Below are positions 32,484-62,339 of a stretch of DNA of 64,000 bases, piece by piece. Position 1 is the stretch's first letter. Every line of letters starts with the position of its first letter. The notes below the pieces were generated by a model. It worked only from the letters and a program-made list of their open reading frames with translations. It had not been told where the DNA came from and made no database searches. The position numbers were made by a program, and so were the translations under genes. This DNA is from Halorhabdus sp. BNX81 (GTDB lineage Archaea; Halobacteriota; Halobacteria; Halobacteriales; Haloarculaceae): contig NZ_CP107254.1 in NCBI RefSeq assembly GCF_029229925.1, positions 2,108,001 through 2,172,000 of the forward strand, in the 5' to 3' direction.

Positions 32484-35426
32484 CTACTCGAAGCGCACCG
32501 CCTCGATTTCGAGCGTGCTATTGCCTCCTTGCCAGAAGTTGAGCCGGACCGCAAGCCCCTCGGCGGTGGGGTCGATACCGGCCGACTCCATGTCGATCGC
32601 AACGTCGGTAACGCTCGTTCCGATCGAATCGTCAGTCAGGTCGGACAGATATCCGCGCGTGCCGCCGACATCGACGATGAACTCCTCGCCCTCGCCACCG
32701 TTGGCACCGCGTACGCGCAAGACAAGTGTCTCGTACTCCTCGACACGCCGGTTGATCTGCTCCTGATACCACCCGCCGTTGTCGTACTCAAGCACCAGGG
32801 CACCGTCTTCGACATCGCCGCTCCCGTTCTCGAAGGAGCCGGCCCCACACCACTGGCCGAGGTCGTTGCGATTGCTCGACCACGCCGGGTCGCCGTCGTA
32901 GTCGTTGACGACCAGCGCCTCAGCGGGTTGGTCCTCGTTCCCGCTGTCGTCTGCGTCGTCGGTCGTCACCTCGACGGACACGGTATCGGACTCGTTGCCG
33001 GCACCGTCGACCGCCGAGACGCCGATCTCGTAGGTCGTCTCGGCGGCGAGTTCTTCGACAGTCGCCCTTGTCGTCCCGGCCTCGACCTGCTGGTCGAAGT
33101 CGCTCGCAACGGAGACAGTGTAGTGATCGAGGCCGGACCCACCCTCGTCGGTGGCGGCGTCCCACTCGATCTCGGCCGAGGACGCGGTCGTCTCGACCAC
33201 CGAGAGGTTCGATGGGGCCGTCGGGGCGGTCGTATCGTCGGGCTCGGACTCGGACTCACCCGGAAGCTGGCCGTAAACCAGTTCGCCGTCGAGGTAGACG
33301 GGGATCGCCTCGGTGACGGTCGCCTCCTCGCCGATGTCCTGGAAGCTCGGATCGTTCGATGGATCCCAGTTGCTCTCCCAGTTGTCGTCCTGTTCGGCGA
33401 TCATCGAGATCTGAATCTCCCGTGCGCCATAGATCTGGTTGCCCGACCAGTCGAGTTCGATGTAGTAGATGCCGGCATCCTCGTCCCAGGCGATCGGCCC
33501 CGAGACGTCGGCCGACCCATCGCCCATGGTTGATTGCTGGTCGTACTGGACCTCGACCGAGACGGCGTCGATCGACTGGCCGGCGTCGCGCAACTCGCTG
33601 ACGTCGATGAAATAGCGGGCGCTGAGGCCGTCCTCACGATGGGGCGGGTGGATCGATTCGTTGTGGATCGTGACTCGAACCTGTGTCCGGTCGGCGTTCT
33701 CCTGGAGGACCTCCCCCTCGGCGTAGTAGGCGTCGATCGGCTCCTCACCCGGCGGGAACTCGGCGACTGGCTCGCCGGTATCGTCGTAGAAGGTGTTGAA
33801 CCCCGCGAGCGCACCGACCAGTCCCGCGTTGAAGTCGATCGCGACCTCGTTGTAGACGTAATCGGAGGTCTCGTCGACGTGGGTGTCGTCCTCGTCGGGC
33901 CCGCCGACCAGGGCACCCCACAGCGTGTGGCGATGCTCTTCGGGTTCCTCCATGCTGTTTGTCTTCGAACCGTGGGCCGCCCGGTGGTGGGGATGCTCGG
34001 CGTGATCGTCGGTGAACCCGACGATCAGCGAGTAGCCGAAGGGATTGTCACCCATGATGTAGTTCATCTGGGTCGCCGCCCAGTCGGTGAACGCGACCGC
34101 CTTCTCGGTGTCGCGGTACTTCCGGTAGACCATCGCCTGGAACTGCGCGGCGGCGTTGTACCGGGCCGACCCCCACGTGTTGAGCACGGTGAACCCAGCA
34201 TCCGACGTCGAGGCGTAGTTCGTGTCATTGGCGTCGTCATGCTCGACCGAACCGCCGGAGAGATACTCCAGGTTCCAGCGGGCGATCTGCCAGTGTTCGG
34301 GGTCGTCGGTGATCGGCGCGAGTTTGAGGAAGACGCCGCCCCAGACCGTGTCCCAGGAGTGGACCCAGATGTTCTGCCAGTCGTCGTCGGTCGAGTCGAT
34401 GATCTCGCCGAAATACCCAGTGTAGGTGCCCGAATCGTCGGTCGCGAGGATGTCATCCAGATACGCGTCGTCCTCAGTCGCGATGTGCAACCAGACCGCC
34501 GCCCAGGAGAGTTCGTCCTCGTCGTAACTCGAATCGTAGAAGCCGCCGTCATACCCCAGTCCGCGGTTCTCGACAGCGAAGTCATACAGCGCTTGTGCGG
34601 TGTCGAGACACTCCGCCGCGTACGCCGAATCCTCGGACTCCAGGACGAGCGAGGTAATCGTCAGCGCCGCGGCCGCCCCGGCGCACTGGTCGCTGGCCGG
34701 ATCCTCCGGCGTGGCGAAGTAGGCTGGCCGGGGGTACTCCTCGGACGACTGGAGTTCCGGCGGCCCCCAGTAGTTGTGGTCGATACTCCCCTCGCCGACG
34801 TGATAGCAGAAGGCGACGACGTTGCCTTCGTCATCCCGGAACGTCGACTTCAGGAAGTAATCGGCGAAGTGCCGCAGGATGTCGACCATGTGGTCGTAGA
34901 CCCCCACGTCCCGGAAGGCGTCCTCGAACTCGTAGAGCGCCCAGGAAAGCGTCGAGGCGCTGTAGGACTGGGGGAGCCCGAACTTCATGTGGTCGCCGGC
35001 GTCGTGGAACCCGCCGCTGACGTCGACCGTCCCGGTGCCGTCGGGGTCGAGTACGTCGCTGTACTCCTCGATGAAGCTCCCAGAGAGGTTGGTCCCGCCG
35101 TCTTCGGTCGCCGCATCGAGCGGAATCTCAGTGTCCGAAGGGTGGCACTCGCCGCGCCACTGGAGGCGATCGCCCATCGTCGTCGCACCACAGCGATTGG
35201 CGTCATAGAAGTACAGTGACTGCTGGAGCGCGTGGGCGTAGTCGAAGCCCAACTCAGTCTGTGCGGCTGCTCGGGAGACCACGCTCGGCGTGGCCACGTC
35301 CGTCCCGAGCGCGACCGATCCCGCGCCCAGTCCCATCGCCGCAAGCAGGTCCCGACGGAACAGATCGGTGTCCCGGTCAGTTTTCGTCCGCCCCATTCCC
35401 CGTGAGTTCGCGTCGTGTTCTGTCAT
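32484..35426 (-). CDS. Secreted GH9 endoglucanase with CBM3c-like, Fn3 and recurring C-terminal module
   Basis: A 980-residue Tat-exported protein (FRRDLLAAMGLGAG). GH9 catalytic domain, about residues 58-560: FDYAHALQQSLYFYDANRCG at the start, catalytic Asp pair in GGFHDAGDHMKFGLP (about 142-145), HHRAAHG (about 480-486) and the acid Glu in YNEVAIDFNAG (about 527). A CBM3c-like module (about 563-720) follows at once, as in processive GH9 endoglucanases, then one Fn3 (about 738-828) and the recurring module with DLGQWCGAGSF (about 837-980). It should cut beta-1,4-glucan inside the chain, outside the cell. Confidence 0.93.
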   Translation of the reverse strand: MTEHDANSRGMGRTKTDRDTDLFRRDLLAAMGLGAGSVALGTDVATPSVVSRAAAQTELGFDYAHALQQSLYFYDANRCGATTMGDRLQWRGECHPSDTEIPLDAATEDGGTNLSGSFIEEYSDVLDPDGTGTVDVSGGFHDAGDHMKFGLPQSYSASTLSWALYEFEDAFRDVGVYDHMVDILRHFADYFLKSTFRDDEGNVVAFCYHVGEGSIDHNYWGPPELQSSEEYPRPAYFATPEDPASDQCAGAAAALTITSLVLESEDSAYAAECLDTAQALYDFAVENRGLGYDGGFYDSSYDEDELSWAAVWLHIATEDDAYLDDILATDDSGTYTGYFGEIIDSTDDDWQNIWVHSWDTVWGGVFLKLAPITDDPEHWQIARWNLEYLSGGSVEHDDANDTNYASTSDAGFTVLNTWGSARYNAAAQFQAMVYRKYRDTEKAVAFTDWAATQMNYIMGDNPFGYSLIVGFTDDHAEHPHHRAAHGSKTNSMEEPEEHRHTLWGALVGGPDEDDTHVDETSDYVYNEVAIDFNAGLVGALAGFNTFYDDTGEPVAEFPPGEEPIDAYYAEGEVLQENADRTQVRVTIHNESIHPPHREDGLSARYFIDVSELRDAGQSIDAVSVEVQYDQQSTMGDGSADVSGPIAWDEDAGIYYIELDWSGNQIYGAREIQISMIAEQDDNWESNWDPSNDPSFQDIGEEATVTEAIPVYLDGELVYGQLPGESESEPDDTTAPTAPSNLSVVETTASSAEIEWDAATDEGGSGLDHYTVSVASDFDQQVEAGTTRATVEELAAETTYEIGVSAVDGAGNESDTVSVEVTTDDADDSGNEDQPAEALVVNDYDGDPAWSSNRNDLGQWCGAGSFENGSGDVEDGALVLEYDNGGWYQEQINRRVEEYETLVLRVRGANGGEGEEFIVDVGGTRGYLSDLTDDSIGTSVTDVAIDMESAGIDPTAEGLAVRLNFWQGGNSTLEIEAVRFE

Positions 35427-35524: not shown

Positions 35525-38500
35525 CTATTCGAGTCGGATCTCTTCGATTTCGAGCGTGCTCGCACCTCCTTGCCAGAAGTTCAGGCGGATCGAGAGTCCC
35601 CCGCCCGACGGGTCGATCCCGGCCGCGTCCATGTCGATCGCGACGTCAGTGACACTCGTCGTGATCGAGTCGTCGGTCAGATTCGCGAGCAAGTCGCGCG
35701 CACCGCCCATGTCGAAGAGGAACTCGCTCTCCTCGCCGCCGTTCGCCCCGCTGACCCGCAACACGACCGTCGAGTAGTCGCTGACGTCTTGCTGGACCTG
35801 TTCGACGAACCACCCGGCATTGTCGTATTCGAGGACCAGCTCGCCGTCCTCGACCGCACCGCCTCCGGCAGTGCCATTCTGGAACGACCCGGCGCCGCAC
35901 CACTTGCCGAGGTCGTTGCGATTGCTCGACCACGACGGATCGCCGTCGTAATCGTTGACGACCAGGGCGTCTGCCGGTGATTCGTCGTCCTCATCGCCTT
36001 CGCCGTCGTCGGCCTCGTCGGTGGTAGCCTCGACGGTCGCCGTCGCCGACTCGTTGCCGGCCGTGTCGATCGCCGAAACCCCGACCTCGTAGGTCGTCGC
36101 GGCGGTGAGGCCGTCGATCGTCGCCGTCGTCGTCCCTGCCTCAACCGCCAGATCTCGGCTCCCGTCGACGTAGACGGCGTAGGCGTCGACACCCGTGCCG
36201 GCGTCCGAAGCCCCACTCCAGGCGAGGTCAATCGAGGACTCACTCGTGCCCTCGACCGAGAGGTCCCCGGGGACAGTCGGCGGGGTCGTGTCGTCGCCGG
36301 CGTCGGTCGTCACGTCGACAGTCACCGTCGCCGACTCGTTGCCGGCCGCGTCGACGGCCGAGACGCCGATCTCGTAGCTCGTCTTGGCCGCGAGATCGGC
36401 GATCGTCGCCGACGTGGTCCCGGCTGGGACCTGCTGATCGAGACTGCCGTCGACGGAAATTGCGTAATGGTCGAGTCCCGAGCCTCCGTCGTCGCTCGAA
36501 GCGCTCCACTCGATCTCGGCGGATGACGGCGTCGTCGTGGTCACTGAGAGGTTCGAGGGAGCAGTCGGCGGGGTCACGTCCTCGCCGCCGCCGTCGCCGC
36601 CCGTGAACTCGACCCAGTCGAAGTTCCAGCCGCTGGTCTCGACGACGATCCGGATGACGTGCTCGCCCTCGGGGAGGTCGACCTCGCCGACCCGGATCTC
36701 CTCGAAGTTCTCCCAGCCACCGGTCGGCCAGACGTTCTGGGTCGCCACCTCGGCGCGGTCGACCTCGATCCGGAGGTCGCCACCCGAATCAGCGCCGTTG
36801 GCAACCCGAACGGTGGCCTCGTAGCTACCACCGGATTCGACGGTGACGGTGTACTCCAGCCACTCGCCGGTCTCGGTGTACCCGACGTTGTACCCCGACT
36901 CGACGGCCGTCCCGATGTCGACGCCCGTCTCGCGGTAGTCGGCCCCGGCCTCGTTCGTGGATCCCGTATCGTAATAGGCGATTCCCTGGCCACCCTCGTC
37001 AAAGTCCTCGGCCTGGATGCGGCCCGGGAGTTCGTGCTCGACGAACGCCGACTGGCCGGCGTCGGTGGCGATCGTTTCGGCGACCGTCGTCGTCTGATTG
37101 GACTCGTTGCCCGCACTGTCGACGGCAGAAACACCGACCTCGTAGGTCGAAGCCGGTTCCAGGCCGTCGACCGTCGTCGCCGTCCCGTCGATCACCTGCC
37201 CGCGGCGCTCGCCGTCGACGTAGACGTTGTAATGGGAAAAGCCGGCCTCGCCCTCGTCGGTGACGGCGCTCCAGGCGATCTCGACGCTGATCTCGGTCGA
37301 ACGAGTTACCTCGAGCCCCGAGGGTGCCGGCGGTGCGACGTCGTCATCGATCGTACTCTCCGGGATGCCCTGGTCTTTGGTCGCCTCGAGCCAGGTCTTG
37401 ATGTACCCGCCCATCTGGTCGGGGTCGTCCTTGAGCGTCCAGGGCTCGTTCGCTCCCGAGTCCGGCGACTCGAAGAAGGCCGGCTCCCAGGAGTCGTCGA
37501 AACACCACGAGATCCACCCCATGTTCTCGTAACCCTCGACCCACTCGCGGAACGGCTCGCCCCACCCGGAGGTGGTGCCCTGATCGACGGATCCCCCGGT
37601 GGGTTCCCAGCCGAACTCCGTGACGACGACCGGGACGTCGTTTGCCGGTTCGCCGTACCACTGGTCGAAGTCCGCGGGCGGTCCGTTGTCGGGGTAGATG
37701 TGCGCCGCGTAGATCAGGTTCTCCCCATCGAAGGGATACTCCGGCGCCATGTGGGTCACCGACGTCCAGCGCGGCGAGCCGATGATGATCGGCGTCTCCG
37801 GGGCGTGCTCGCGGACGAGGTCGACCCACGGCTGGGCGGCGTCACGCCAGGCCTGAAAGGCACCGGCGTCGTCGCCGTACATCGCCGGCTGGGTCGGCTC
37901 GTTGAACAGCTCGTAGATGACGTGTTCGTCCTCGGCGAACTCCGGGGCGACCCGATCCCAGAAGGTCGTCATCACGTCGTCGATCGGTGCGAGGTCGTCG
38001 TCGTTCTCCTCGTTGTAGGTCTCAGTTGCTTCCTGCGTATAGGGTCTGATGAGGTGGAAGTCCACCAGCGCGTAGACGTCCCGGGCCGCCAGCAGGTCGA
38101 CCGCGGGGCGGAGTACCTCGGTGACGTACGTCTCCAGGCCCAGCGCGTCGATCGAGTCCTGCGTGCAGGGCAACCGGACGGTGTTTGGATGCCAGCCGCG
38201 CTCCGTGTCCGTCGCCCACTCCAGGACTTCCTCGAAGCTCTTGGGGTGGTACTGCCGGTAGAAACCGGGGTCAGCGGGTGCCATCCCCCGGAGCGTCACG
38301 TCGTTGCCCGCCGGGTCGCGGATCCACCGCCCCTCGGTGTGCAGGCGTGGTGTCGGAACCCCGGCGGCTCCGGTCCCAGTGGCGGCCGAAAGCCCGGCAC
38401 CGATCGTCCCAGCACTCGCCATCGCCCCGAGGAACGTCCGGCGTGACGGCGTGAGGCCGGGGTCCTCTCGGGCCGCCTCGTCAGTGTGATCAGTCGCCGA

Positions 38501-38681: not shown

Positions 38682-41600
38682 TCACTCGAATCGTATCGCC
38701 TCGATCCGGAGCGTTCCGCTCCCGGCGCCGCCCTCCCAGAAGTTCAGGCGGAGTTCGCCCGGCGACGTGGCGTCGATGCCCGCCGATTCCAGATCGATAG
38801 AGATCGGTTCCGGCGTGGTCCCGATCGAGCCGTCGGCAACGGTACTGAACGTCGCTCGATCACCGCCGAGCGAGACAACGAAGTGATCGCCTTCGCCGCC
38901 GCTTTCCCCGCTGAGGACGACCACCAGCTCCGCGTAGTCCGAGACGTCCTGCTGGACCTGCTCGACGAACCACCCGGCGTTGTCGTACTCGAGGACCAGC
39001 GCGCCGTCCTCGACGTCGCCGCCGCCGTTCTCGAAGGAGCCGGCGCCACACCAGTTCCCGAGGTCGTTCCGGTTGTCCGCCCACGCCGGATCGCCGTCGT
39101 AGTCGTTGACGACCAGGGCATTTTCTGGCGGTTCTTCCCCGCCGTCGTCGCTCTCGGCGGTCGTCACCTCGATGACGGCCGGGTCGGACTCGTTGCCGGC
39201 ACCGTCGATCGCCGAGACGCCGACCTCGTAGGTCGTCCCGGCGTCCAGTTCCTCGACGGTCGTACTCGTCGTGCCGGCCTCGACGGAGTGGACCGTTTCG
39301 CCGTCGACGGCAACGACGTACTGCTCGACCCCAGACCCGCCCGAATCCGTCGAGGCGTCCCACGAGAGCGAGACCGAGGAGCTCGTGGTTTCGGTCGCCG
39401 TCAGGTCGGCGGGCGCCGTCGGTGCCTCGTCGTCGCCGTCCCCGGTCGTCGCCGTCACCGTCACGGTCCCGGATTCGTTGCCCGCGCTATCGACGGCCGA
39501 GACACCGATCTCGTACTCGGTAGCGGGATCGAGTCCGTCGACCGTCGCGGTCGTCGTGCCAGCGGGGACCTGCTGGTCGAGCGCGCCGTCGACGGAGACA
39601 TCGTAGTGGGCAAGGCCCGACCCACCGTCGTCAGTGGCGGCGTCCCACGAGAGCGAAATCGAGGAATCCGTCGTCCCGGTCACTGCCAGATCGCCGGGCG
39701 CCGTCGGCGGCGTCGTGTCCTCGTCGCCATCACCGTCGTCCGTGGTGCCGTCGCCGGCGGTCGTCGCGCCGGCCACCGAAACGGGGCCGACGTCGGACGC
39801 CGTCCAGTCCTCTAGCCAATCGACTTCGTCGAAGCGGGCGGCGGCGAGTTCGCCCGCGCTGTTGGCGCTGACGAACAGCCCGACGTGGACGTCCTCGGGG
39901 AGATCGACGTCGCCGGACCCGATCTCCGTCCAGTCCGAGCCGTCCGGCGAGACTGACGCCGACACCGACGACCCCGACCGCTTGACGCGCAACCAGATCG
40001 GCGGCGTGCGATCGTCGCCGGCACGCTCGCGCCACACCGTCGAGTCGTAAGCCCGCGTCAGTTCGCTCCCCTCGCCGGGCGTGATCGTGGCGGCACCGAG
40101 CGCGCCGGGCGCGGCCGGATCGTCGGCCACCAGCACACCGGCCTGGGTCTGGGGATCGACTGGTTCGAGATCCGCGACGCGGGCCGTGACCGCCACGTCG
40201 CCCGAGGCGGGCATCGACGCGAAGTGACACTGCTTGGTGTCGCGGTGGAACGTCTCGCCCGCGCCCTCGACGAGAAACGAGTCTTCCGGGATGCCTTCGA
40301 CGGAAACTGACTCGGTATCGGCGTCAGTCGCGCCGCTATCGTCGGTGACAGTCAGTTCAGCCTCGTGGGAGCCGGCTTCAGCGAAACGGTGGGCCACCCG
40401 CTCGCCGGTGGCCGTCGCGCCGTCATCGAAGTCCCAGTCGTAGGCGGCGATCGAGCCGTCCGGGTCGAAGGAGTAGGTGCCGCTGAAATCGCCGGACTCG
40501 CCGATTCGGAGCGAAGAGGGTGCCGTCGCGTCGGCCGTCGGCGTGCCGTCGGTACTCCCGGACTTTTCGCGGATCGTCGATGCGTACCCCGAGAGGATGT
40601 CACCGGACTCGCTCCGGTAGACCTGGAAGCCGTCGTGGTCCTCGGTGTCCTCGAGCACCAGTTGCCAGATCGCCGCTGCGCCCGCGTCCTGGCTGTCGAG
40701 GGCGTCGTACCACGCCCGCAACCGATCGTTTCGCGTCGCCAGGTCGTGTTCCTGGACGTTGACGTTGAACTCCCCCAGCAACGCGGGCTTTTCGAGCGTC
40801 TCGCGGGCGTCGGCGGCGTGTTCGCGGATCCACTCGACGGCACTGACGACGTCGTCCTCGGCGAGTTGGCCCGCCAGCCCCATGCCGGGCCAGTGGTACG
40901 GATAGAGGTGGAACGAACACACGTCGATCGTGTCGATCTCGTGATGGGCGATGAAGTTCTGGCCGGTCCAGTCACCGTACATCCAGTTTGGCCCGTCCGG
41001 GCGTGTGTAGAAGCCCTCCAACCCGGTCGTCACCAGGTGGTTGTCGTCGAGATCCTTGATGAACCCGGACATGTCGGCGAACCACTCGGTGAGGGCGGCC
41101 TCCCGGTCGTCGATGGTTTCCGTGTCGTCGTCCTCCAGTCGGGGTTCGTTGGCGAGTTCCCACATCGCGATCGCGGGGTCATTGCGGTACTCGACGCCGG
41201 TGATCGAATTCTTTCGCGTGAGAAGCGTCTCGACGTGGGTGCGATACAGTTCACGACACGCCTCGTTGACGTAGAAGTCGCCGTGCTCGCTCGCGCCGTC
41301 CGCCCACTCGACGTACTGGGCGATGCCGCCGTAGTCGTCCCAGTTATTGACCAGCGAGAGGATGAGTCGCACCCCGTGTTCGCCGGCTTTCGCGACGAGA
41401 TAGTCGAGGTGCTGCAGCGCTGCCTCGTTGAACACCCCCGGTTCGGGCTGGAGACACTGGCCGCCCTCGCCCGCACAGAACGCCCAGGTCCGCAGCAAAT
41501 TCTGATCCAGGTCCGCACACAGCGCGAGGACGTCGTCGATCCGCGAGCGATCGCTGTAGGGATCGGTCACCCAGAAGTTGTTCGTCCCGCTGAAGTAGAC

Positions 41601-52059: not shown

Positions 52060-54336
52060 CTACTGGAAGCGGATCTCCTCGATTTCGAGCGTGCCACTGC
52101 CGCCCTGCCAGAAGTTCAGTCGAACCGAGAGCCCCCCGGTCGACGGGTCGATACCTGCCGATTCCATGTCGACGGTGACGGTCGAGGCCGACGTTCCGAT
52201 GGCGTCGTCGGTGAACGCAGAGAGGAGCCCCCGAGCGCCACCCACGTCCAGCAGGAACTCGTCCGCTTGGACGTCGTCACCGGCCAGGACCAACACCAGT
52301 TCCGAGTACTCCGAGACGTCCTGCTGGATCTGCTCGACGAACCAGCCGGCGTTGTCGTATTCGAGGACCAGCGCCCCGTCCTCGACCGCGCCGCCACCGT
52401 TCTCGAACGAGCCGGCCCCGCACCACTGGCCGAGATCGTTGCGATTGGACGCCCACGCCGGATCGCCGTCGTAATCGTTGACGACGAGTGCCTCGACAGG
52501 CGTCTCGCCGTCGTCTTCGCCGTCGTCGATGCCGTCGCCATCCTCGTCTCCATCACCGTCGTCGGTACCATCATCACTGTCCGCGGTCGTCGCCGATACC
52601 GTCGCGGCGTCGGACTCGTTGCCCGCACTGTCGACCGCCGAGACGCCGATCTCGTAGGTCGCCGCCGCGTCGAGCCCCTCGACCGTCGCGGTCGTCATGC
52701 CGGCACCGATCGTCTGGTCCTGCGAGCCGCCCACGGAGACGACGTACTGGTCCAGCCCGGCGGTCCCGTTGTCCGTCACGCCGTCCCAGGAGACGGTGAC
52801 CGTCGAGTCGGTCGTCGTCGACACCGAGAGATTCGTCGGCACCGACGGCGGCTGGGTGTCGTCCGCGGCGCTGCCGTCACCCGCGACGGTGACCGTGACC
52901 GTCGTCGTGCCCGAGGCGTCCGTGACTTCGACTGACTCGGTCGTCTCTGCGCTATCGGTACTGACGGTGACTTCGTGGTCACCCAGGAATGCCGTCGTGG
53001 CGTAGGTTCCACTGGCGTCGGTCGTGCCGGAGTCGTCGGTCCACCACTCGTCGTAGACCAGGCCGGTCCAGACGTCGTAGGCGGGTTTCTGGGACCAGTC
53101 CTCGTAGAACAGCGGCGCTTCGTCTTCCCAGTGGTCGCCGTCCCAGAAGCCCCACATGATGAACGCGTCGACGCCAGGATGGCTGAACGCACCCCGGAGG
53201 TAGTTCTCCGTCACGTCGGCGCGTTCCTCATCTGAGTTCCAGTCGTCGCCGTTGTACGTGTCGAATTCAGTGATCTTCACGCGTGCGCCATGGTCGGCCC
53301 ACGTGTTGATCTCCGAGACGACCTGGTCGGCGTCGATCCGGCCGTCCGGATCGTCGTTGGAATTGAACTCGCCCTCTCGGGCGGCAATGTGTGCCTGGAG
53401 ACCGACCGTGTCCAACTGTGCCCCGTTGGCGTTGATGTGGTCGATCTCCGACTCGTAGCGGTTGTCCGTGTAGGCGTAGGGGAACTGGTTGAAGTCGTTG
53501 ACCGCGATCCCGACGTCGAGGTCGTGCTCCGCGATCACCGACGCGGCCGTCTCGTACCACGCCGCCAGGAGTGGAGAGGTCCACGGGACAACCTCGCCGT
53601 TCCAGGGCTCCTCGGTGTCGATCTGATCGCCGTAGACACCGAGCTGCAGCTGGTAGGCGTGCATCGCCTCGTTGACGACATCCCAGTCGGTGATGTCGTC
53701 ACCGTAGTGGGTGATGATCTCCTCGATGTGGGCCATCGAACGCTCGCGGATCGTCTCGGCGTCGCGTTCCTCGATCGCCGTCAAGATATCGTCCGGGATC
53801 GCCGCGACGTCCTCCCGGCCCCAGAGACAGACGTGCCCGCGCATGTCCAGTCCCTGATCGAGCAGCCAGTTGGTCGCCTCGTCGGCGACCTGCCGGTTGT
53901 TCTCCCAGAACCGCCACTTGTGGTGGTTACCGAGCACCGCCGTGTTGAACAGCTCCGGGACGTACTCGCGGTAGTTGTCGCCGGGGTCGCTCTCGTTGAC
54001 GAGCCTGTCGGCGTTGACGGCGGTGCCGAAGCTGAACGCGTGTTCCTGCTGGGCGATCGAGACCTCGGCGTCCGAGACCGTCGAGCCGTCGGGGTTCTCG
54101 ACGACCACTTCCAGATCGCCGGTCCGGTGTTCTTCGATCCGTTCGTCGATACTCAAGGAAGTGTCAGCCGTCTCGGCGGCTGCGCCACCCGTTGTGGCAG
54201 CGCCGAGTCCGGCCGCCGCGGCCGCTGCCGCGACGGTCTGAAGATAGTCTCGCCGGTCCATCGAGCCGACAGAATCGTCGGCCTCGACGGGGCCGGCCGT
54301 CGATGTGTCGATGTCGTCGTTCGTGTCTGGTGTCAT
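52060..54336 (-). CDS. Secreted GH10 xylanase with Fn3 and recurring C-terminal module
   Basis: A 758-residue tandem paralogue of the GH10 at 49552-52020: same Tat signal, same N-terminal beta domain, GH10 with acid/base Glu in WDVVNEAMHAY (about 223) and nucleophile Glu in VKITEFDTYNG (about 357), and the same GTYATTAFLGDHEV extension. Here the C-terminus is one Fn3 and the recurring module (DLGQWCGAGSF) instead of PKD domains. The two genes are 39 bp apart, so a local duplication followed by a swap of C-terminal modules is likely. Confidence 0.94.
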   Translation of the reverse strand: MTPDTNDDIDTSTAGPVEADDSVGSMDRRDYLQTVAAAAAAAGLGAATTGGAAAETADTSLSIDERIEEHRTGDLEVVVENPDGSTVSDAEVSIAQQEHAFSFGTAVNADRLVNESDPGDNYREYVPELFNTAVLGNHHKWRFWENNRQVADEATNWLLDQGLDMRGHVCLWGREDVAAIPDDILTAIEERDAETIRERSMAHIEEIITHYGDDITDWDVVNEAMHAYQLQLGVYGDQIDTEEPWNGEVVPWTSPLLAAWYETAASVIAEHDLDVGIAVNDFNQFPYAYTDNRYESEIDHINANGAQLDTVGLQAHIAAREGEFNSNDDPDGRIDADQVVSEINTWADHGARVKITEFDTYNGDDWNSDEERADVTENYLRGAFSHPGVDAFIMWGFWDGDHWEDEAPLFYEDWSQKPAYDVWTGLVYDEWWTDDSGTTDASGTYATTAFLGDHEVTVSTDSAETTESVEVTDASGTTTVTVTVAGDGSAADDTQPPSVPTNLSVSTTTDSTVTVSWDGVTDNGTAGLDQYVVSVGGSQDQTIGAGMTTATVEGLDAAATYEIGVSAVDSAGNESDAATVSATTADSDDGTDDGDGDEDGDGIDDGEDDGETPVEALVVNDYDGDPAWASNRNDLGQWCGAGSFENGGGAVEDGALVLEYDNAGWFVEQIQQDVSEYSELVLVLAGDDVQADEFLLDVGGARGLLSAFTDDAIGTSASTVTVDMESAGIDPSTGGLSVRLNFWQGGSGTLEIEEIRFQ

Positions 54337-54375: not shown

Positions 54376-56007
54376 TTAGGAAACTGTAATCGTCACTTCG
54401 TGCGTGCTCGAATCACCGCCGTCGCTGGTGGCAGTCAGCGCGACCGTGTAGGTACCCGCCGAATCGTAGGTGTGTGCCGCCCACCAGCCAGTCGCTGTCG
54501 ACCCATCGCCGAAGTCGAACGACAAAGACGCGATCCAGTGACCCTCACCACTCGTATCGGTGACCCTGAATGTGACACGCTCACCGACACTGGCCGACGT
54601 CGTACTCGGCTCCACCTCGGCGAGCACGGCATCGCTACCGTCGGTGTCCCCGGCATCGCCACCGGACCCGCTATCATCACTGCCGCCGATGTCGCCTCCA
54701 GCAGTGTCGTCGGTGGTGTCGCCGCTTCCCGCACCGACGTCACTGCCAGCGCTCCCCCCGGTGGAGCTCCCATCGACGGGTTGCCAAACGTAGTAGTCCT
54801 CCTCGCGGGGTTCCTGATCCAGGGTGTACCACTGGGCCTCCCAGACGCGTCCGTCGTGGACGACCCGATCGCCGGTGCGATAAACGGCAGTTGAATCCCA
54901 CGTGGGATACTCGCTGGAACCCCCTGAGTCGCTACCGGCGTCATCGCCCGAATCATCGCCGGAGTCGCCAGTGTCACTGTCCGAGTCATCATCGGAGTCA
55001 CTGCCCGACCCATCGCCATCGTTGCCACCCGAATCATCACCGGAGTTGCCGCCGGATCCGTCGTCGGTCCCGCCGCTGACGTCGACGTGTTCCAGCATCT
55101 CCGCGGCGTAGCGGCGACCGAGTTCCCGATACGCGTCTGACGTGAAGTGCGCGTAATCCTGGCCGGCAAGTCCTTCAGCCGAGACAACGTGGGCGTTCTC
55201 GATGACGTCCGGGAGTTCGTTGACTTCGGTGTTGTGCGAGCCACAACACCCCCCAGCCGAGTCATAGAGCATCTCGCCCGCCAGGAACGGGACGTTGCCG
55301 ATACCGAGGTCGGCGCGGAGATCCTTGACGATACCCTCGACCTGGGCGGTCCACTGCTGATCGTTCGTGTTTGTCTCACCCTGGTGGAACAGGATGCCCT
55401 TGAACGTCCCGACTTGCTGGGCCGTCTCGGCGAGATCGACCATCCACTCGTACCCGCCGTCGAACTGCGGTGGAATGTCGCGGTCGTTCCGCCCGATCGG
55501 TGCCCCCTTTTCGAAGAGGGCAATGTCGGCCCCGCTGACGGCTGCGGGGACGAGCCCGATCGACCGATCGTCCGGCAGCTCCTCGATCAGGGTCTTGGCG
55601 AAGTAATCGCCGGGGCCGAGTTGTCCATAGCATCGGTTGAGCGGCGGTTCGGCCAGATACCACTCGCCATACTCGCGATCGAGGTTCGGACAGGTCTTGT
55701 CAGCGAGGACGTGGATCCGCGGGTTCGTCCCTCGATCCTGCTCTTCGATCGGTCCCTGCCCCTCCATGTTCGACTGGCCAAACAGCAGGTACAGATCGAG
55801 ATTCGACGGGTCAGTCGCCGTGGCCGCCGAGGCCTGCTGGCCCAGGCCGAGCGCAACCGTCCCTGCGCCGACCGCAACACCGCTCTTCAGGAACGCACGT
55901 CGAGACGTGTCCCCCTGGGATCCGGCCGCCTCGTTCGAGCGATGTTGCTCACCCCCACTCCCCGATGCCTCGTCCACGTCGTCAGTGTCGTGCGCGCGTC
56001 GTGTCAT
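54376..56007 (-). CDS. Secreted CE6/SASA-type acetylxylan esterase with CBM5/12-like and PKD domains
   Basis: A 543-residue protein starting at ATG 56007 (MTRRAHDTDD); the longer frame runs into the next gene. Tat signal SRRAFLKSGVAVGAG. The esterase domain (about 65-310) is SGNH/SASA-like: LLFGQSNMEGQG (nucleophile Ser about 79), GILFHQGETNTND and DYAHFTSDAYRELG (catalytic Asp/His region). A long Asp/Gly/Ser linker leads to a CBM5/12-like module (WDSTAVYRTGDRVVHDGRVW, then QAQW-like WEAQWYT) and a final PKD domain. It should remove acetyl groups from xylan, helping the GH10 enzymes next to it. Confidence 0.87.
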   Translation of the reverse strand: MTRRAHDTDDVDEASGSGGEQHRSNEAAGSQGDTSRRAFLKSGVAVGAGTVALGLGQQASAATATDPSNLDLYLLFGQSNMEGQGPIEEQDRGTNPRIHVLADKTCPNLDREYGEWYLAEPPLNRCYGQLGPGDYFAKTLIEELPDDRSIGLVPAAVSGADIALFEKGAPIGRNDRDIPPQFDGGYEWMVDLAETAQQVGTFKGILFHQGETNTNDQQWTAQVEGIVKDLRADLGIGNVPFLAGEMLYDSAGGCCGSHNTEVNELPDVIENAHVVSAEGLAGQDYAHFTSDAYRELGRRYAAEMLEHVDVSGGTDDGSGGNSGDDSGGNDGDGSGSDSDDDSDSDTGDSGDDSGDDAGSDSGGSSEYPTWDSTAVYRTGDRVVHDGRVWEAQWYTLDQEPREEDYYVWQPVDGSSTGGSAGSDVGAGSGDTTDDTAGGDIGGSDDSGSGGDAGDTDGSDAVLAEVEPSTTSASVGERVTFRVTDTSGEGHWIASLSFDFGDGSTATGWWAAHTYDSAGTYTVALTATSDGGDSSTHEVTITVS

Positions 56008-56095
56008 GTATCGCGTCGTATCATATTGCCGTATTTCCTGCCCCCCATCGTCCCCAGTGGGACGCCAACGGCAGGCGAATCGAGCGGTTGCGTCC

Positions 56096-57568
56096 CTATT
56101 CGAACCGGATTTCGTCGATTTCGAGCGTACTGTCACCCCCCTGCCAGAAGTTCAGGCGGACCGAGAGCCCGCCGGCCGACGGGTCGATCCCTGCTTCGTC
56201 CATGTCGACGGTGACCGTCGACGCCGAGGTCCCGATGGTGTCGTCAGTGAACGCCGAGAGGAGCCCACGAACGCCGCCGACATCCAACAGGAACTCGTCC
56301 GCTTCGCCGCCGTTGGCTCCGCTGAGGACGAAGACGAGGTCCGAATACCCCGAAACGTCCTGATTGATCTGTTCCTGGAACCAGCCGGCGTTGTCGTATT
56401 CGAGGACCAGGGTCCCGTCTTCGACCTCGCCGCTCCCGTTCTCGAAGGAACCGGCCCCACACCACTGGCCGAGATCGTTCTGATTCGACGACCACGCCGG
56501 ATCGCCGTCGTAATCGTTCACGACGAGGGCGTCGCCCGACGGCGTGTCGGTCTCCGTGGGCGTCTCCGTCTCGGTTTCGGTGGGCGTCTCGGTCTCTGTC
56601 GGCGTCTCGGTTTCCGTCGGCGTCTCGGTCGGAGTTGGCGTCGGCGTGTCCGTCCCGCTGCCACTGGCGTAGGTCGTCCCGTTGATCGTGACGTCGAAGG
56701 TGTTGTAGGTTGTTTCGCCGGAACTGCCCTCCCAGTACTCGTTGCCGAGTTCGACACCCGAGAGCCAGAGACTCTCGTCGACGCCGTGTTCCGCGGTCAG
56801 ATAGTCGACGATCTCGGTCAGGTCGATCCGGCCGCCGTCGTGACCGCCCTGGATTCGGAAGATGTAGAACGTCGCGTCGGTCCCGCCGCCGGCGTAGGTC
56901 GTCCAATGATCGACGGTGTTGCCGAATCGGTCGGTCCAGACGTTCTCGGCCTCGACCGCGCCGTGACTGTGCTGGTCGTTCCAGTCCAAGAGGAGCATGA
57001 TCTCGTACTGGTGGGTCCCGGTCTCCTGGCTCGGTGGCTGGTCCATCAGCCACCACTCCTCGGCCCAGTCCCACTCGCCGCCGGACTCGGAGTACTCGGC
57101 CTCGACGTCGATGACGAGTTCGTCAACGTCCCGACGCCGGATCGGGAACTCCGCCACCCCGGTGTCAGTCCCCCAGGGTTTCGTCCCACAGATCACCTCG
57201 GGATAGTTGATCCCACTGCCACCCGCGGCGTCGAAGTCATAGCCGTAACTGCCGTCGTCGTTGAGCCAGACACACTGATCGGCGTTTGAGTTCCCCCACT
57301 GGTTGTCCACCAGGGTGAACCCGTCGGCGACGTCGATCGACCCGTAGTCGTCGGAGTTACAGACCTCCTCGACCGTCGCCGCCGAAGCCTGGTCGCTCGC
57401 AGTCAGCGCGAGCCCACCCAACCCGACGCCCGCGCTCGCCAGGAGGAATCGCCGGCGGGTCTGGGTCGCGACGGACGGACGATCGCCGGACCGTTTCGCG
57501 GTGTCGGTGGTCGTGTCACTGGTAGTCGATTCTCCCGTCGATTCGTCCGTGTCGGTGTCGTGTGTCAT
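56096..57568 (-). CDS. Secreted GH12 endoglucanase with recurring C-terminal module
   Basis: A 490-residue protein from ATG 57568. Tat signal TRRRFLLASAGVGLGG. The catalytic domain (about 68-290) is a GH12 beta-jelly roll: FTLVDNQWGNSNADQCVWL at the start, WDWAEEWWLMDQ, nucleophile Glu in YEIMLLLDW (about 189) and acid/base Glu in GVELGNEYWEG (about 277). A Thr/Pro/Glu repeat linker (PTPTETPTETETP) leads straight to the recurring module (DLGQWCGAGSF) with no Fn3. It should act on beta-1,4-glucan or xyloglucan. Confidence 0.92.
   Translation of the reverse strand: MTHDTDTDESTGESTTSDTTTDTAKRSGDRPSVATQTRRRFLLASAGVGLGGLALTASDQASAATVEEVCNSDDYGSIDVADGFTLVDNQWGNSNADQCVWLNDDGSYGYDFDAAGGSGINYPEVICGTKPWGTDTGVAEFPIRRRDVDELVIDVEAEYSESGGEWDWAEEWWLMDQPPSQETGTHQYEIMLLLDWNDQHSHGAVEAENVWTDRFGNTVDHWTTYAGGGTDATFYIFRIQGGHDGGRIDLTEIVDYLTAEHGVDESLWLSGVELGNEYWEGSSGETTYNTFDVTINGTTYASGSGTDTPTPTPTETPTETETPTETETPTETETETPTETDTPSGDALVVNDYDGDPAWSSNQNDLGQWCGAGSFENGSGEVEDGTLVLEYDNAGWFQEQINQDVSGYSDLVFVLSGANGGEADEFLLDVGGVRGLLSAFTDDTIGTSASTVTVDMDEAGIDPSAGGLSVRLNFWQGGDSTLEIDEIRFE
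56451..56533. repeat. 83-bp identical block in recurring module (copy in GH12 gene)
   Basis: CCGGCCCCACACCACTGG through GACGAGGGCGTC is, by eye, identical to 60,583-60,665 in the first GH5 gene. Both encode the start of the recurring module including the conserved Cys. Recent gene conversion or module shuffling is the simplest reading. Confidence 0.8.
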
Positions 57569-57863
57569 GGCTGTGGATCGTGGGCTGTCCAGAACGGTCC
57601 CCAAACTGGGCCGGGCGTCTGTTACCCCCGTAACACGGCCGGCCGCAGGGTCGTTCTGACAGCCAGTGGTGGTTCGGAACGGCTCTCTGGAGCGCGTGGG
57701 GCTGTCTCTCGTTGGTCGCTGGATGGGTGATACGTCGATGCGTACGTGACTTCAGTCGGATTTCGTGTCGTGTCGATGGGTGCCGAACCCGAGGTCGGCG
57801 GGCCGGTCGGACGTGCGATCGTCGCCGGCCGCCGACGCTACGGAATCAGTCCTGACCGACGGC
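57569..57863. other. Gap between GH5 and GH12 genes
   Basis: 295 bp with no gene I can support. A small inverted repeat GTTAC...GTAAC (about 57,621-57,633) is the only structure noted, and no clear TATA box lies close to the GH12 ATG, so GH12 may depend on read-through from the genes upstream. Confidence 0.4.
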
Positions 57864-60173
57864 TCAGGAGATGGTCACCTCGACTTCGTCGGTGGACGTC
57901 TCGCCCTCGTTGTTGGTCGCGGTCAGCGTGACCGTGTAGGTACCCGGCGACTGGTAGCGCTCGTCGGTGTACCAGCCACGGCCGGTGGTGCCGTTGCCGA
58001 GTTCCCATTCGAGGCCGGTGATCCAGGTCTGGTTGCCGGTCTCGTCGGAGATCCAGAACTGGACCAGGTCGCCAGTCGACGCCGAGGTCGTCCCCGGGTC
58101 GATCGACGCGATCAGGTCACCGGTGGTCCCATCGTCGTCATCGTCGGATTCGCTCGTCGTGGCCCCGACGGTCGTCGCGGCGGACTCGTTGCCCGCACCG
58201 TCGACCGCGCTGACCCCGATCTGGTAGGACGTTCCAGCGGAGAGGCCGTCGACCGTCGCACTCGTCGTGCCGGCCGGGACCGTCTGGTCCTGGGAGCCGT
58301 CGACGAAGACGACGTAGCTGTCGAGGCCGGAACCGCCCGAATCCGTCGATGCGCTCCAGGAGACCTCGACCGAGGTTTCCGTCGTCGACTCGACCGAAAC
58401 GTTCGACGGGGCCGACGGCGCTTGCGTGTCACCGTCGTCGCTGCCGGCGTCAGTGTCGGCCGTGATCGTCGTCGTCCCGGACGTGTTACCGGCACCGTCC
58501 TCGGCCGAGACCGCGATCTGGTAGGAGGTGTCGGCAGCCAGCCCGTCGATGGTCGCACTCGTCGTCCCGGCCGAGACCGTCTGCTCCAGCGAGCCGTCGA
58601 CGAGGACGTTGTACTGTGCGAGTCCGGAGGTACCCGAATCGGTCGACGCGGACCACTGGATGGTGATCGACGAGCTCGTCTCGTCGGTCACGGTGAGGTT
58701 CGACGGGATCGACGGTGCCGTCGTGTCATCGTCGTCGCCGCCACTCTCGGGCAGGTCGTTATTGCGGTTCTCATAGAGGTACTCCTGCCACCACTGGGCG
58801 GGACGGGCCTCGTAGTCGTGGATGACCCAGTCGCCGTCCTGACTCTCGTCGTGGACGAAAAAGGAGGGCTCCCAGGTGTGATCGAAGTTCCAGCAGATCG
58901 GGTGGACCGGGTACTCATCGAGGAAGCTCTCGAAGCCGTCGGCGTACTCGGAGGTCGTCCCTTCGAGGAAGCTGAAGCCGTCGCGACCGCCGCCCTCGGC
59001 CCAGCCGAACTCGCTGAAGAACATCGGTACCTCCTCGGCCGCCGTGCCGAAGGAGTCCGACAGGGGTCGCATCCCCTCGTGGGTGTAGACGTGACCGGTG
59101 TAACAGATGTTCTCGCCGTCGAACTCGTTGGTCGGCGCCCAGTAAGTGAGCTGACTCCACCGCGGGGAACCGATCGTGATGAGGTTGTCGGGCGCGTGCT
59201 CGCGAACGGTGTCGACCCACGGCTGGGCACGGTCGACCCACATGTCCCAGTACTCCTGGTTCGCGTCGGCGTCGTATGAGGGGTTGCCCTCGCCCTCCTC
59301 GCCGGTCGCGGGCAGTTCGGTCGGCGAGCCCCAGTCACCGGCGTAGGGACCAGTCGGCTCGTTGTAGATGTCATAGACCACGTGCGAGCGGTCGTTATAC
59401 CGCGGCGCGACGAAGTTCCAGTACATCTGGAGCTCCTGGTTGAGCTCGGCGGCATACTCCTCGGTGTAGCCATCGAGCTGGGAGGCCTGCTCCTCCGAGT
59501 GCCAGAGGACGCCACGTTCGCCACAGAAGCCGATGTCGTTCTCGAAGGACTCGTTCCCGCACTGATAATCTCCGAGATCCTCCTCGTGCTGGGGCTGGTG
59601 GAAGATCGGGAAGTGGCGGTGATAGTCGATCATGACGTAGAGCCCTTCCTCCTCGGCAGCGTCGACGATGGGATCGACGTAGTTCGAGAAGTACGTCTCC
59701 ATGTCGGACTCGTCTATCTGACCGGGCAGCAGCGGGCCCCAGTCGTCTCCATGAGGCATGCTGCCGATGCTCCCGGACCCGGCGTCCCCGATGTCCTGGG
59801 GCTGGGTCGGAACCCGGAGGATGTTGTTGTGCCAGCCGCCGTCGTTTGACTCGTCGGTGTTCGTGGCTTTGTCGAAGACGCCCATCGAATCCTTACTGCG
59901 CCAGGACCGCGCCAGCCGGGCCGGATCGGCCATGTTGACCCCGCGAAGGATGACCTGATTGCCGTCGGGGTCCCGAAGCAGGTTGCCGTCGCGTTCGAGC
60001 CACGGCGTCGGAATGTCGTCTGCCGAAACCGAGCCGACGATGCTACTTGCGAACCCGGCCGTGAGCGCGCTCGCTCCCGCCGCCTTGAGAACGTCCCGCC
60101 GTGAGACGTCGTCGATGATTCGACTGTCGTTCGTCGCCGATTCTACGCTATCGTGTGTGTTGTCGTTCGTCAT
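57864..60173 (-). CDS. Secreted GH5 glycoside hydrolase with two Fn3 and a PKD domain
   Basis: A 769-residue protein with a Tat signal (SRRDVLKAAGASALTAG). GH5 domain (about 54-490, longer than its neighbours because of an insertion around 195-240 with extra Cys): acid/base Glu in VYDIYNEPTGPY (about 272), nucleophile Glu in MFFSEFGWAEGGG (about 388). Two Fn3 (about 505-685) and one PKD domain close the protein; the recurring module is absent. The start is 54 bp from the end of the first GH5 gene without a visible promoter, so they are probably one transcript. Probably an endoglucanase. Confidence 0.9.
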   Translation of the reverse strand: MTNDNTHDSVESATNDSRIIDDVSRRDVLKAAGASALTAGFASSIVGSVSADDIPTPWLERDGNLLRDPDGNQVILRGVNMADPARLARSWRSKDSMGVFDKATNTDESNDGGWHNNILRVPTQPQDIGDAGSGSIGSMPHGDDWGPLLPGQIDESDMETYFSNYVDPIVDAAEEEGLYVMIDYHRHFPIFHQPQHEEDLGDYQCGNESFENDIGFCGERGVLWHSEEQASQLDGYTEEYAAELNQELQMYWNFVAPRYNDRSHVVYDIYNEPTGPYAGDWGSPTELPATGEEGEGNPSYDADANQEYWDMWVDRAQPWVDTVREHAPDNLITIGSPRWSQLTYWAPTNEFDGENICYTGHVYTHEGMRPLSDSFGTAAEEVPMFFSEFGWAEGGGRDGFSFLEGTTSEYADGFESFLDEYPVHPICWNFDHTWEPSFFVHDESQDGDWVIHDYEARPAQWWQEYLYENRNNDLPESGGDDDDTTAPSIPSNLTVTDETSSSITIQWSASTDSGTSGLAQYNVLVDGSLEQTVSAGTTSATIDGLAADTSYQIAVSAEDGAGNTSGTTTITADTDAGSDDGDTQAPSAPSNVSVESTTETSVEVSWSASTDSGGSGLDSYVVFVDGSQDQTVPAGTTSATVDGLSAGTSYQIGVSAVDGAGNESAATTVGATTSESDDDDDGTTGDLIASIDPGTTSASTGDLVQFWISDETGNQTWITGLEWELGNGTTGRGWYTDERYQSPGTYTVTLTATNNEGETSTDEVEVTIS

Positions 60174-60227
60174 CGTTGTGTCCGTGAGTCGTTGTGTTGT
60201 GAGTCGCTGTGATCGAAACGGAGCGGT

Positions 60228-62339
60228 TTATTCGAGCCGTATCTCCTCGATTTCGAGCGTGCTAGACCCACCCTGCCAGAAGTTCAGCCGGACTGAGAGT
60301 CCCCCAGCCGACGGGTCGATACCTGCGGATTCGAAGCCGACCGTGACGTTCGAGGCCGACGTCGAAATCGAATCGTCAGTCAGATTCGCGAGCAAATCAC
60401 GCGTCCCGCCCATATCGAGAAGGAAGTCGTCTTCCTCGCCACCGGTCGTACCGCTGACACGAATGACAAGCGACGAATAGTCCGAAATGTCCTGCTGAAT
60501 CTGCTCGACGAACCAGCCGGCGTTATCGTATTCGAGGACCAGCGCGCCATCGTCGACCTCGCCACTCCCGTTCTCGAAGGAGCCGGCCCCACACCACTGG
60601 CCGAGATCGTTCTGATTCGACGACCACGCCGGATCGCCGTCGTAATCGTTCACGACGAGGGCGTCTGCCGGCGTCGTTTCGTCGTCATCGTCTTCACCGG
60701 TACCGTCGTCGTCGGATTCGCTCGTCGTCGCCGCGACGGTCGTCGCGGCGGACTCGTTGCCCGCTCCGTCGACCGCAGAGACGCCGATCTGATACGATGT
60801 TCCGGCGGAGAGCCCGTCGACCGTCGCCGACGTGGTTCCTGCCGGGACAGTCTGGTCCTCGCTGCCATCGACGGAGACGACGTAGCTGTCGAGGCCGGAA
60901 CCGCCCGAATCCGTCGAGGCGCTCCAGCTCACGTCGACCGAGGTTTCGGTCGTCGACTCGACCGAGAGTGACGTGGGCGCCGTGGGCGGAGTGGTGTCCT
61001 CGTCGTCGCCGTTACCGTCGCCACCGCCGGTCCCCTCGCCGGGGATCCCGTCGTTGCGGTACTGTTCGAGGGCCGCCTTGATGTCGTCGCCCATGGCCCC
61101 GCTGCCGGTCGTGAGTTCCCACTCACAGGGCAACTCCGAACAGGCCTCGGGAACAGTCCCGTTGTAGGGGTCGCCGATCGAGTCGTCGGCGTTCTCGGCG
61201 AACGGCCGGCTGAACATCACCGGTCGCCAGACAGGGTCAGCACACCAGGCCGTCCAGTGGATGGCCTCGCTCTTCTCCAAGAAGTCGAGGAACGCGGTCC
61301 CGAAGTCGTCGGTCCCGCCGATGTACTGCCCGGCATTTTCCTCCCAGCCGAACTCGGTGACGAACAGCGGCGCTTGCTCGTAGACGCCGGCAACGCCTTC
61401 GCCGTTGTTCGAGGCGTCCTCCCAGTTCTGGCTTTGACTGGAGTTGTGACCCGGATAGATGTGGAAAGTGTAGGCGATGTCCTCGCCGTCGAACTCCTCG
61501 ACGAGTGCGCCTTCCGGACTCTGTGACCAGCTGGGCGAGCCCATCAGGATCAGGTTGTCCGCGTGACTGCGGATCGTGTCGACCCACGGCTGAGCCATCT
61601 CGAGCCAGAGCTGCCAGATGTCGGCGACCCACTGGGTGGTCGTGGGGTCCTCCCACATGCCCGGCTCGGTGGGCTCGTTGTACACCTCATAGAGGACGTG
61701 TGATTGGTCGGCGTACCGCGGTGCGACCGTGTCCCAGAACATGTCGACCTCGTCCTGGAGCTCGGTGTTGACGGGGCCGTCCTGGCCCTCCGCCCACTGG
61801 ACGTCCCGGTGGCGGTGGTAATCGATAATACAGTAGACGCCACGGTCGGCACAGCGCTGAACGACCTCGTCGAGGTGATTGCTGAGATACGATTCGAGCT
61901 CGCTCTCGTTGAACGCTGGGACAGGCGGCCCCGACCCGGGTTCGTACTCGCCGATGTCGACCGGCTGGACCGGGACGCGGATCATCCGCGGATACCAGCC
62001 GTTTGACTCGTCGGTGAGCATGTCGATGACCTGCGTCGCCGTCATCCCGCGCGCTTGGGCGGTCTCGTTGATCCGCTTGGGATCGGCGATATTGACGCCC
62101 CGGAGGGTGACAGTGTTGCCGTCGGGATCTTTGATCAGATTCCCGTCACGGTGGAGCGGTGGCGTCGGAATCGCCGCGGATGCCCCCCCAAGCGCACCCG
62201 TCCCGACGCCGAACGCGAGCGCGCCAGTCAGCACGCTGCTCTTGAGGAACGCCCGCCGTGACTGCCCGTCGCCGCTCGTCACACGGTTGGTTAGCGATGC
62301 CACTCTGTCTCCCGTCGGTGGTCTGTCTGGATCTGTCAT
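60228..62339 (-). CDS. Secreted GH5 endoglucanase with Fn3 and recurring C-terminal module (first gene of the cluster)
   Basis: A 703-residue protein with a Tat signal (SRRAFLKSSVLTGALA). GH5 domain (about 57-430): acid/base Glu in LYEVYNEPTEPG (about 222), nucleophile Glu in LFVTEFGWEENAG (about 329), FHIYPGHNSSQSQNW. It is clearly the sister of the GH5 in the 1223-residue protein. One Fn3 and the recurring module (DLGQWCGAGSF) follow. It is the first gene after the TrmB-type regulator and has the clearest promoter of the cluster. Confidence 0.92.
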   Translation of the reverse strand: MTDPDRPPTGDRVASLTNRVTSGDGQSRRAFLKSSVLTGALAFGVGTGALGGASAAIPTPPLHRDGNLIKDPDGNTVTLRGVNIADPKRINETAQARGMTATQVIDMLTDESNGWYPRMIRVPVQPVDIGEYEPGSGPPVPAFNESELESYLSNHLDEVVQRCADRGVYCIIDYHRHRDVQWAEGQDGPVNTELQDEVDMFWDTVAPRYADQSHVLYEVYNEPTEPGMWEDPTTTQWVADIWQLWLEMAQPWVDTIRSHADNLILMGSPSWSQSPEGALVEEFDGEDIAYTFHIYPGHNSSQSQNWEDASNNGEGVAGVYEQAPLFVTEFGWEENAGQYIGGTDDFGTAFLDFLEKSEAIHWTAWCADPVWRPVMFSRPFAENADDSIGDPYNGTVPEACSELPCEWELTTGSGAMGDDIKAALEQYRNDGIPGEGTGGGDGNGDDEDTTPPTAPTSLSVESTTETSVDVSWSASTDSGGSGLDSYVVSVDGSEDQTVPAGTTSATVDGLSAGTSYQIGVSAVDGAGNESAATTVAATTSESDDDGTGEDDDDETTPADALVVNDYDGDPAWSSNQNDLGQWCGAGSFENGSGEVDDGALVLEYDNAGWFVEQIQQDISDYSSLVIRVSGTTGGEEDDFLLDMGGTRDLLANLTDDSISTSASNVTVGFESAGIDPSAGGLSVRLNFWQGGSSTLEIEEIRLE
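60583..60665. repeat. 83-bp identical block in recurring module (copy in first GH5 gene)
   Basis: Partner of 56,451-56,533. Other pairs of modules in the cluster are also close in DNA but carry more differences. Confidence 0.8.

Follow-up and report, generated by a model that had tools for sequence, protein, structure and literature searches.

The hydrolase cluster and its two kinds of ending

The window analysed here is a 64,000-nt stretch of the genome of Halorhabdus sp. BNX81 (NZ_CP107254.1, positions 2,108,001 to 2,172,000; 2.83 Mb, single contig), which is coded G000 among the G-numbered genomes compared below, with G050 and G079 belonging to the same genus. It holds a tight same-strand gene cluster (30513-62339, with intergenic gaps of −41 to 259 bases) encoding twelve hydrolases that end in either a module with a lone Cys (the Cys module) or a PKD domain. 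All twelve lie on the same strand and carry a Tat signal of the same kind. They comprise a glycoside hydrolase family 9 (GH9) enzyme, seven GH5-type enzymes, two GH10 enzymes, a GH12 enzyme and one SASA-type esterase. The enzyme 47598 was called GH5-type from its PDB matches to beta-mannanases, because Pfam named only its PKDs. Genes are cited by their first coordinate, and the features of the locus are as follows.

32487..32924, minus strand: C-terminal Cys module of the GH9 enzyme 32484-35426 (aa 835-980)
35528..35974, minus strand: C-terminal Cys module of the GH5-CBM6 enzyme 35525-38533 (aa 854-1002)
38685..39128, minus strand: C-terminal Cys module of the GH5-type enzyme 38682-41843 (aa 906-1053)
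40290..40562, minus strand: internal PKD of 38682-41843, ordinary subtype without Trp signature
41843..42286, minus strand: C-terminal Cys module of the GH5 enzyme 41840-45511 (aa 1076-1223)
43181..43603, minus strand: internal module copy of 41840-45511, Val for Cys, between Fn3 domains (aa 637-777)
45521..45958, minus strand: C-terminal Cys module of the GH5 enzyme 45518-47476
47601..48248, minus strand: two terminal-type PKDs (47601-47849, 48000-48248) of the mannanase-like enzyme 47598-49388
49555..50145, minus strand: two terminal-type PKDs (49555-49803, 49897-50145) of the GH10 enzyme 49552-52020
52063..52497, minus strand: C-terminal Cys module of the GH10 enzyme 52060-54336
54379..54624, minus strand: terminal PKD of the SASA-type esterase 54376-56136
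56099..56533, minus strand: C-terminal Cys module of the GH12 enzyme 56096-57604
57867..58115, minus strand: terminal PKD of the GH5 enzyme 57864-60173
60231..60668, minus strand: C-terminal Cys module of the GH5 enzyme 60228-62339 (sequence modelled with AlphaFold)
31839..32270, minus strand: N-terminal module of 30513-32351, Ala for Cys, directly after the Tat signal
62753..63826, minus strand: TrmB-family regulator, upstream of the same-strand cluster

Open reading frame (ORF) and domain searches agreed with the original prediction that the Cys module forms the exact C-terminal end of eight enzymes (32484, 35525, 38682, 41840, 45518, 52060, 56096 and 60228) and a PKD that of four (47598, 49552, 54376 and 57864). 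The two endings had also been described as mutually exclusive. Indeed no protein ends in both, but this is true by definition and cannot fail, because one chain has one C-terminus. Taken to mean that no protein carries both domains, the claim fails once in the window: 38682 has a PKD (Pfam PKD_4, aa 434-513) as well as its C-terminal Cys module. This internal PKD is of another subtype, matching the terminal-PKD profile with an E value of 2.7e-7, where the window's six terminal-type copies all reach 1.8e-41 or lower. Nor is the module C-terminal as such, since 41840 holds a second, internal copy and the neighbouring gene 30513 an N-terminal one, both lacking the Cys. For 54376-56136 and 56096-57604, the longest ORFs begin upstream of likelier starts (Tat motif at residue 79 and 50, respectively); internal ATGs lie nearer the Tat motif, so the true genes probably do not overlap.

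Predicted fold and distribution of the Cys module

The module spans approximately 145 aa, and all 10 copies in this genome lie within the cluster, sharing 25 invariant columns and being 43-78% identical to the first. Pfam gave no match over it at E ≤ 0.001 in the window proteins and NCBIfam none at 0.1 for three single modules, while the best PDB sequence matches, a spike fragment (E 0.0017) and a tape measure protein (E 0.2), appear to be fortuitous. An AlphaFold model of the 60228 module (pLDDT 96.7, pTM 0.91) found its best solved-structure matches among carbohydrate-binding modules (CBMs): CBM8 (Z 14.2; root-mean-square deviation 2.3 over 132), CBM30 (Z 13.0), CBM11 (Z 11.6) and CBM29 (Z 11.2). 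Foldseek likewise placed CBM30 and CBM8 at the top (E 4.3e-5 and 4.8e-5, respectively). The module is thus predicted to be a CBM30/CBM8/CBM11-like beta-sandwich, a fold that shows no function by itself. The likeness to CBM30, CBM8, CBM11 and CBM29 extends over nearly its full length, and the module, like these CBMs, is appended to cellulases; it differs in its low identity (10-17% in the listed CBM rows), in matching no Pfam or NCBIfam family and in the lone conserved Cys of its C-terminal copies.

The module is present in 20 of 391 Halobacteria genomes. Counting only matches of about 100 residues or more, there are 93 copies in 19 genomes, of which 57 are C-terminal, 25 N-terminal and 11 internal. 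Fourteen copies share their protein with a dockerin-like tail, and eight of these proteins consist of little more than signal, module and tail. The module is therefore a non-catalytic domain of carbohydrate-active enzymes found at varied positions, as CBMs are, and its occurrence at either terminus, internally or as the sole partner of a dockerin-like tail argues for a binding role. A survey of haloarchaeal cellulases states, in the part available, that many contain "yet undetectable domains" (PMC10267330), and the module itself is not described in the main text parts of the literature compared (PMC10267330, PMC4569967 and PMC4081043).

The Cys occurs in 51 of the 57 C-terminal copies and in none of the 36 others; exactly one Cys is found in 50 of the 57, and two in one copy. 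The six C-terminal exceptions have Asn (G137 and G281), Thr (G276, G360 and G337) or Arg (G344), and the Thr module of G337 stands at the protein end but belongs to the internal-module clade. On the module tree the Cys state needs 2 changes and is essentially one clade. Position and Cys are therefore not independent repeats, and their link may be one of inheritance; repeated evolution of the Cys as a mark of the C-terminal position was ruled out.

The rest of 30513-32351 is a C-terminal part of about 390 aa with no match in Pfam, NCBIfam or PDB. It recurs in the regions of 17 of the 20 genomes (G000 included), never together with a Cys-module, PKD or dockerin-like ending. A 578-aa N. mannanivorans protein, paired with 30513 by length and place, is tabled as CBM3, chitin/cellulose-binding, in the part of PMC10963439 available.

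The terminal PKD is a distinct subtype

The terminal PKDs resemble Pfam PKD (PF18911 and PF00801) by score (PKD_4 39-101 bits, cut-off 27) and differ by a W[IL]...GW[WY] signature, present in 33 of 34 terminal-type copies and in none of the four internal PKDs of 38682 orthologues. Six of the seven strong terminal-subtype copies in G000 lie inside the cluster. The seventh ends a GH11-like protein with a CBM6-like part (L101, about 2525339, reverse strand), adjoining another GH11-like protein that has a ricin-like end, so that here too a related catalytic pair differs in its endings (names by eye). PKD is counted among the substrate-binding domains of haloarchaeal chitinases in the available part of PMC12343721.

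Orthologous enzymes exchange endings across genomes

The comparison covered relatives' regions chosen for holding the module, with hydrolases elsewhere in the genomes outside the count, and used family seeds from this window (GH5a to GH5g are names of this analysis). Among 126 hydrolases with closed 3' ends from 19 genomes, 51 ended in a Cys module, 40 in a dockerin-like tail, 25 in a PKD and 6 in a Cys-less module, and 4 had no ending; the twentieth genome, G178, has one partial module match and zero counted hydrolases. One of the four without an ending lies in a frame-broken gene region of G337 (contig C4, about 6856-8708; L073), where a GH5-Fn3-PKD gene is split over two frames, either a broken cellulase gene or an assembly error; this ORF was set aside in the GH5 tree and in the count of 84 below. 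Dockerin-like tails were never mixed with Cys modules or PKD ends in one cluster, and in G344 one Cys-less module end stands beside 12 dockerin-like tails.

In the 11 genomes without dockerin-tailed clusters, 56 of 84 hydrolases carried the module only, 23 the terminal-type PKD only, 2 both and 3 neither (Fisher 2.8e-15; this and the other Fisher p values are nominal because the rows are related). Rather than the many homologues with both domains that would have spoken against the original prediction, there were two, the GH10 enzymes of G160 and G274, in which the module precedes the PKD. In both, the module has Ala for Cys and groups with the 30513-type modules.

The ending types are exchanged between orthologues, with 16 changes needed on the GH5 tree and four on the GH10 tree. 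Both types occurred in GH5e (mannanase-like; 5 PKD and 3 module), GH5f (5 PKD and 4 module), GH5g (8 module and 1 PKD), GH12 (9 module and 2 PKD, the latter in G137 and G281) and the esterase (4 PKD and 1 module), and GH5a, GH5b, GH5d, GH5f, GH10 and GH12 each included dockerin-like-tailed as well as module- or PKD-ended members. The labels were clustered on the catalytic trees and hence not purely random.

The GH10 pair had been read as two near-identical catalytic halves with swapped tails. The two are less alike than that, with 469 of 587 aligned residues identical (80%; 81% for the DNA) in a patchy pattern, and the pair predates the split from G274. A single supported clade unites the module-ended GH10s of G000, G050, G079 and G274 and separates them from those ending in a PKD, so a recent duplication with a fresh tail swap was ruled out. 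Elsewhere on the GH10 tree, the sister enzymes of G182 (module) and G360 (PKD) differ in ending.

Endings group by genus

C-terminal modules group by genus and their catalytic parts by enzyme. The 53 C-terminal copies with Cys or Asn, the other four being dropped, needed 5 genus changes (minimum 3, shuffled mean 26.4), and AU tests rejected module clades for GH12 (p 5e-64), GH5a (p 9e-8) and GH5g (p 2e-5). Inside genera g1 and g11 the modules then sort with their enzymes (the minimum of 7 changes), and in g12 those of one genome group together (the minimum of 3 changes). Terminal PKDs likewise group by genus (6 changes, minimum 4, shuffled mean 15.2), and in G360 the PKDs of GH5e and GH10 are nearly the same. 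The module/PKD swap therefore fits a copying of endings among neighbouring genes, which may have proceeded by gene conversion or recombination.

Dockerin-like tails fill the same position in eight relatives

No hydrolase of this window has a type I dockerin. In eight relatives the same C-terminal position holds a tail with two Asp/Gly-rich calcium-loop-like motifs (alignment; L053-L086). Three typed tails scored 29.4 bits (over the cut-off of 22.9), 20.4 and 15.9 bits (both below) against PF00404; this profile passed its cut-off in 6 of the 8 genomes with dockerin-like tails and had no such match in G062 and G104. Per-genome counts of dockerin-like domains were taken among the best 15 scored candidates (the best 10 in class-wide scans).

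Among the 20 module genomes, cohesin (PF00963) was found in all eight with dockerin-tailed clusters and in none of the 10 module/PKD genomes; the same search gave a match below the cut-off in G137 and none in G178. Clade membership confounds this dockerin-cohesin link. Of 391 Halobacteria, 153 have a cohesin match; these include 18 of the 22 genomes in which at least six dockerin-like tails were counted, versus 135 of 369 others (Fisher 4.5e-5), and family f3 is rich in both domains. The class-wide rate and the richness of f3 weaken cohesin presence as proof of a dockerin system. Two cohesin proteins (L088 and L094, of the set L087-L094) appear to consist of a signal, a single cohesin and a hydrophobic C-terminus. 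G000 itself has five dockerin-like matches outside the window (e.g., 2106126-2106284, 1.7 kb before it) and no cohesin match, so the domain has another role there or an unrecognised partner. In the available parts of PMC10963439 and PMC13260240, dockerin is named as substrate-binding and cohesin is unmentioned.

A probable exchangeable C-terminal attachment slot

We consider it probable that the hydrolases share one exchangeable C-terminal attachment slot, filled by either the CBM-fold module or the Trp-bearing PKD and putatively holding the enzyme to carbohydrate. The slot, the swaps, the predicted fold and the genus-wise clustering of endings are observed; carbohydrate binding, the ligand and a same kind of job for both endings are what we infer. 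Each enzyme would combine its catalytic part with Fn3 or acidic linkers and a single attachment-domain slot; in this genome the slot would be occupied by a Cys module or by one or two Trp-bearing PKDs, and in some relatives by a dockerin-like domain. The likeliest function of both endings would be to tether the secreted enzyme to insoluble polysaccharide, and possibly to cell glycans, and orthologues would swap types because endings are copied between neighbouring genes within a lineage.

Several observations weigh against this interpretation. Complex I assembly and phage baseplate chains are also among the structural matches, so a CBM-like sandwich of the kind predicted here is also found outside the CBMs known to be carried by enzymes. 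An exchangeable slot explains position, fold, swaps and copying; carbohydrate binding does not account for the single Cys conserved in the terminal copies. In G000, G050, G079 and G274, which span two genera, the GH10 paralogues have retained distinct endings. Finally, in the 11 genomes, hemicellulase-type families (GH10, esterase, GH5b and GH5e) had 17 PKD and 12 module endings, versus 8 and 44 in cellulase-type families (Fisher 1.1e-4, nominal, rows being related; 3 cellulase-type rows without ending omitted). Together with the stable endings of the GH10 paralogues, this non-randomness by enzyme suggests some functional difference between the two types.

Such a difference would follow if the endings divided substrates, with cellulose as the target of the Cys module and hemicellulose (mannan, xylan and pectin) as that of the Trp-bearing PKD, so that the ligand and not the location differs. 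Besides the skew by enzyme type, this is favoured by the GH11-like protein outside the window with its terminal-type PKD and by two PKD-ended proteins from G050 and G079 whose resemblance to pectate lyase is weak (E 7e-4 and 8e-4, short of the Pfam cut-off). We regard it as possible but on the unlikely side. The window alone offers exceptions in the module-ended GH10 52060 and 38682 and the PKD-ended cellulase-like GH5 57864, and GH12 carries PKD in two genomes. Moreover, the cellulase/hemicellulase grouping is this analysis's own, made from family names, and the mannanase-like label of 38682 was taken from a matching GH5_7-PKD-lectin architecture in the available part of PMC10963439.

A known parallel is offered by ruminococci, in which R. 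albus enzymes carry CBM37 where R. flavefaciens orthologues carry dockerins (PMC4081043, in the part available, as for the further statements on CBM37). As with CBM37, one putative binding domain is here found on many enzyme families and is replaced by dockerin-like tails in orthologues of relatives; CBM37 occurs very rarely with dockerin, and the Cys subtype never with a dockerin-like tail. Unlike that system, three alternatives exist here (CBM-fold, PKD and dockerin-like), and the Cys-less module does join dockerin-like tails (in the 14 proteins above). The comparison is by distribution on enzymes, not by sequence, and attachment to the cell is reported for CBM37 only. By this analogy, haloarchaea would have a counterpart of the dockerin/CBM37 switch, with dockerin-like tails bound to surface cohesin in some, and here a CBM-fold module whose C-terminal form gained a Cys that links the enzymes to the cell or to one another, PKD being a further option and each genus spreading its own copy cluster-wide. 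This scenario appears doubtful to us.

Two sorting classes, one retained at the cell surface and one released, had been suggested by the original prediction. The mutual exclusivity of the endings is consistent with them, as are the two enzyme pools that exist in related organisms: in neutrophilic cellulotrophic haloarchaea, activity on insoluble cellulose was solely cell-associated and carboxymethyl cellulase (CMCase) was found in cells and supernatant (PMC4569967, in the part available). However, Tat signals are alike in both classes, neither a lipobox nor a C-terminal hydrophobic segment is present in either class among the 12 window hydrolases (no segment with a basic end was found, the top 19-residue hydropathy in the last 60 residues being 0.85), 36 of 93 module copies are not C-terminal, and a given enzyme can end in either type depending on the genome. 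Module position, the lack of anchors and zero PF18962 matches to a type IX secretion system (T9SS) tail in the genome ruled out a sorting tail (PGF-CTERM/archaeosortase or T9SS). Of the predicted targeting classes, the notion of alternative attachment or targeting elements stays plausible, given the CBM fold and the Trp-signature PKD, and sorting into surface-bound and secreted enzymes is improbable.

The C-terminal Cys might instead form intermolecular disulfides or another covalent link, joining module-ended enzymes mutually or to a surface protein. Its restriction to C-terminal copies, its single occurrence in nearly all of them and the Ala at this site where a PKD follows the module (G160 and G274) would all suit such a role. 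Inheritance within one clade may explain the link to position, though, the site is elsewhere mostly Ala, Val, Ser, Thr or Ile, compatible with a buried position, and the mature chains of the 51 proteins divide into 24 with an odd Cys total and 27 with an even one, which gives no pairing signal. A covalent link is thus quite improbable.

We consider it very unlikely that the endings serve only as spacers or for solubility and bind nothing, having spread by recombination: copying within genera would spread neutral sequence too, but catalytic genes without an ending are rare (4/126), and the module keeps its invariant columns among diverged copies and a predicted CBM fold.

An exchangeable slot yields a testable rule, namely that haloarchaeal cellulases have one C-terminal attachment slot whose fillings are interchangeable and spread within genera by copying. 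It adds a predicted CBM-fold family unnamed in Pfam and NCBIfam and provides natural matched pairs, the same enzyme with the other ending, for probing the role of a C-terminal module at near-saturating salt. If the dockerin-like tails do bind cohesins of the same genome, this would mean cell-bound cellulase assembly in these archaea.

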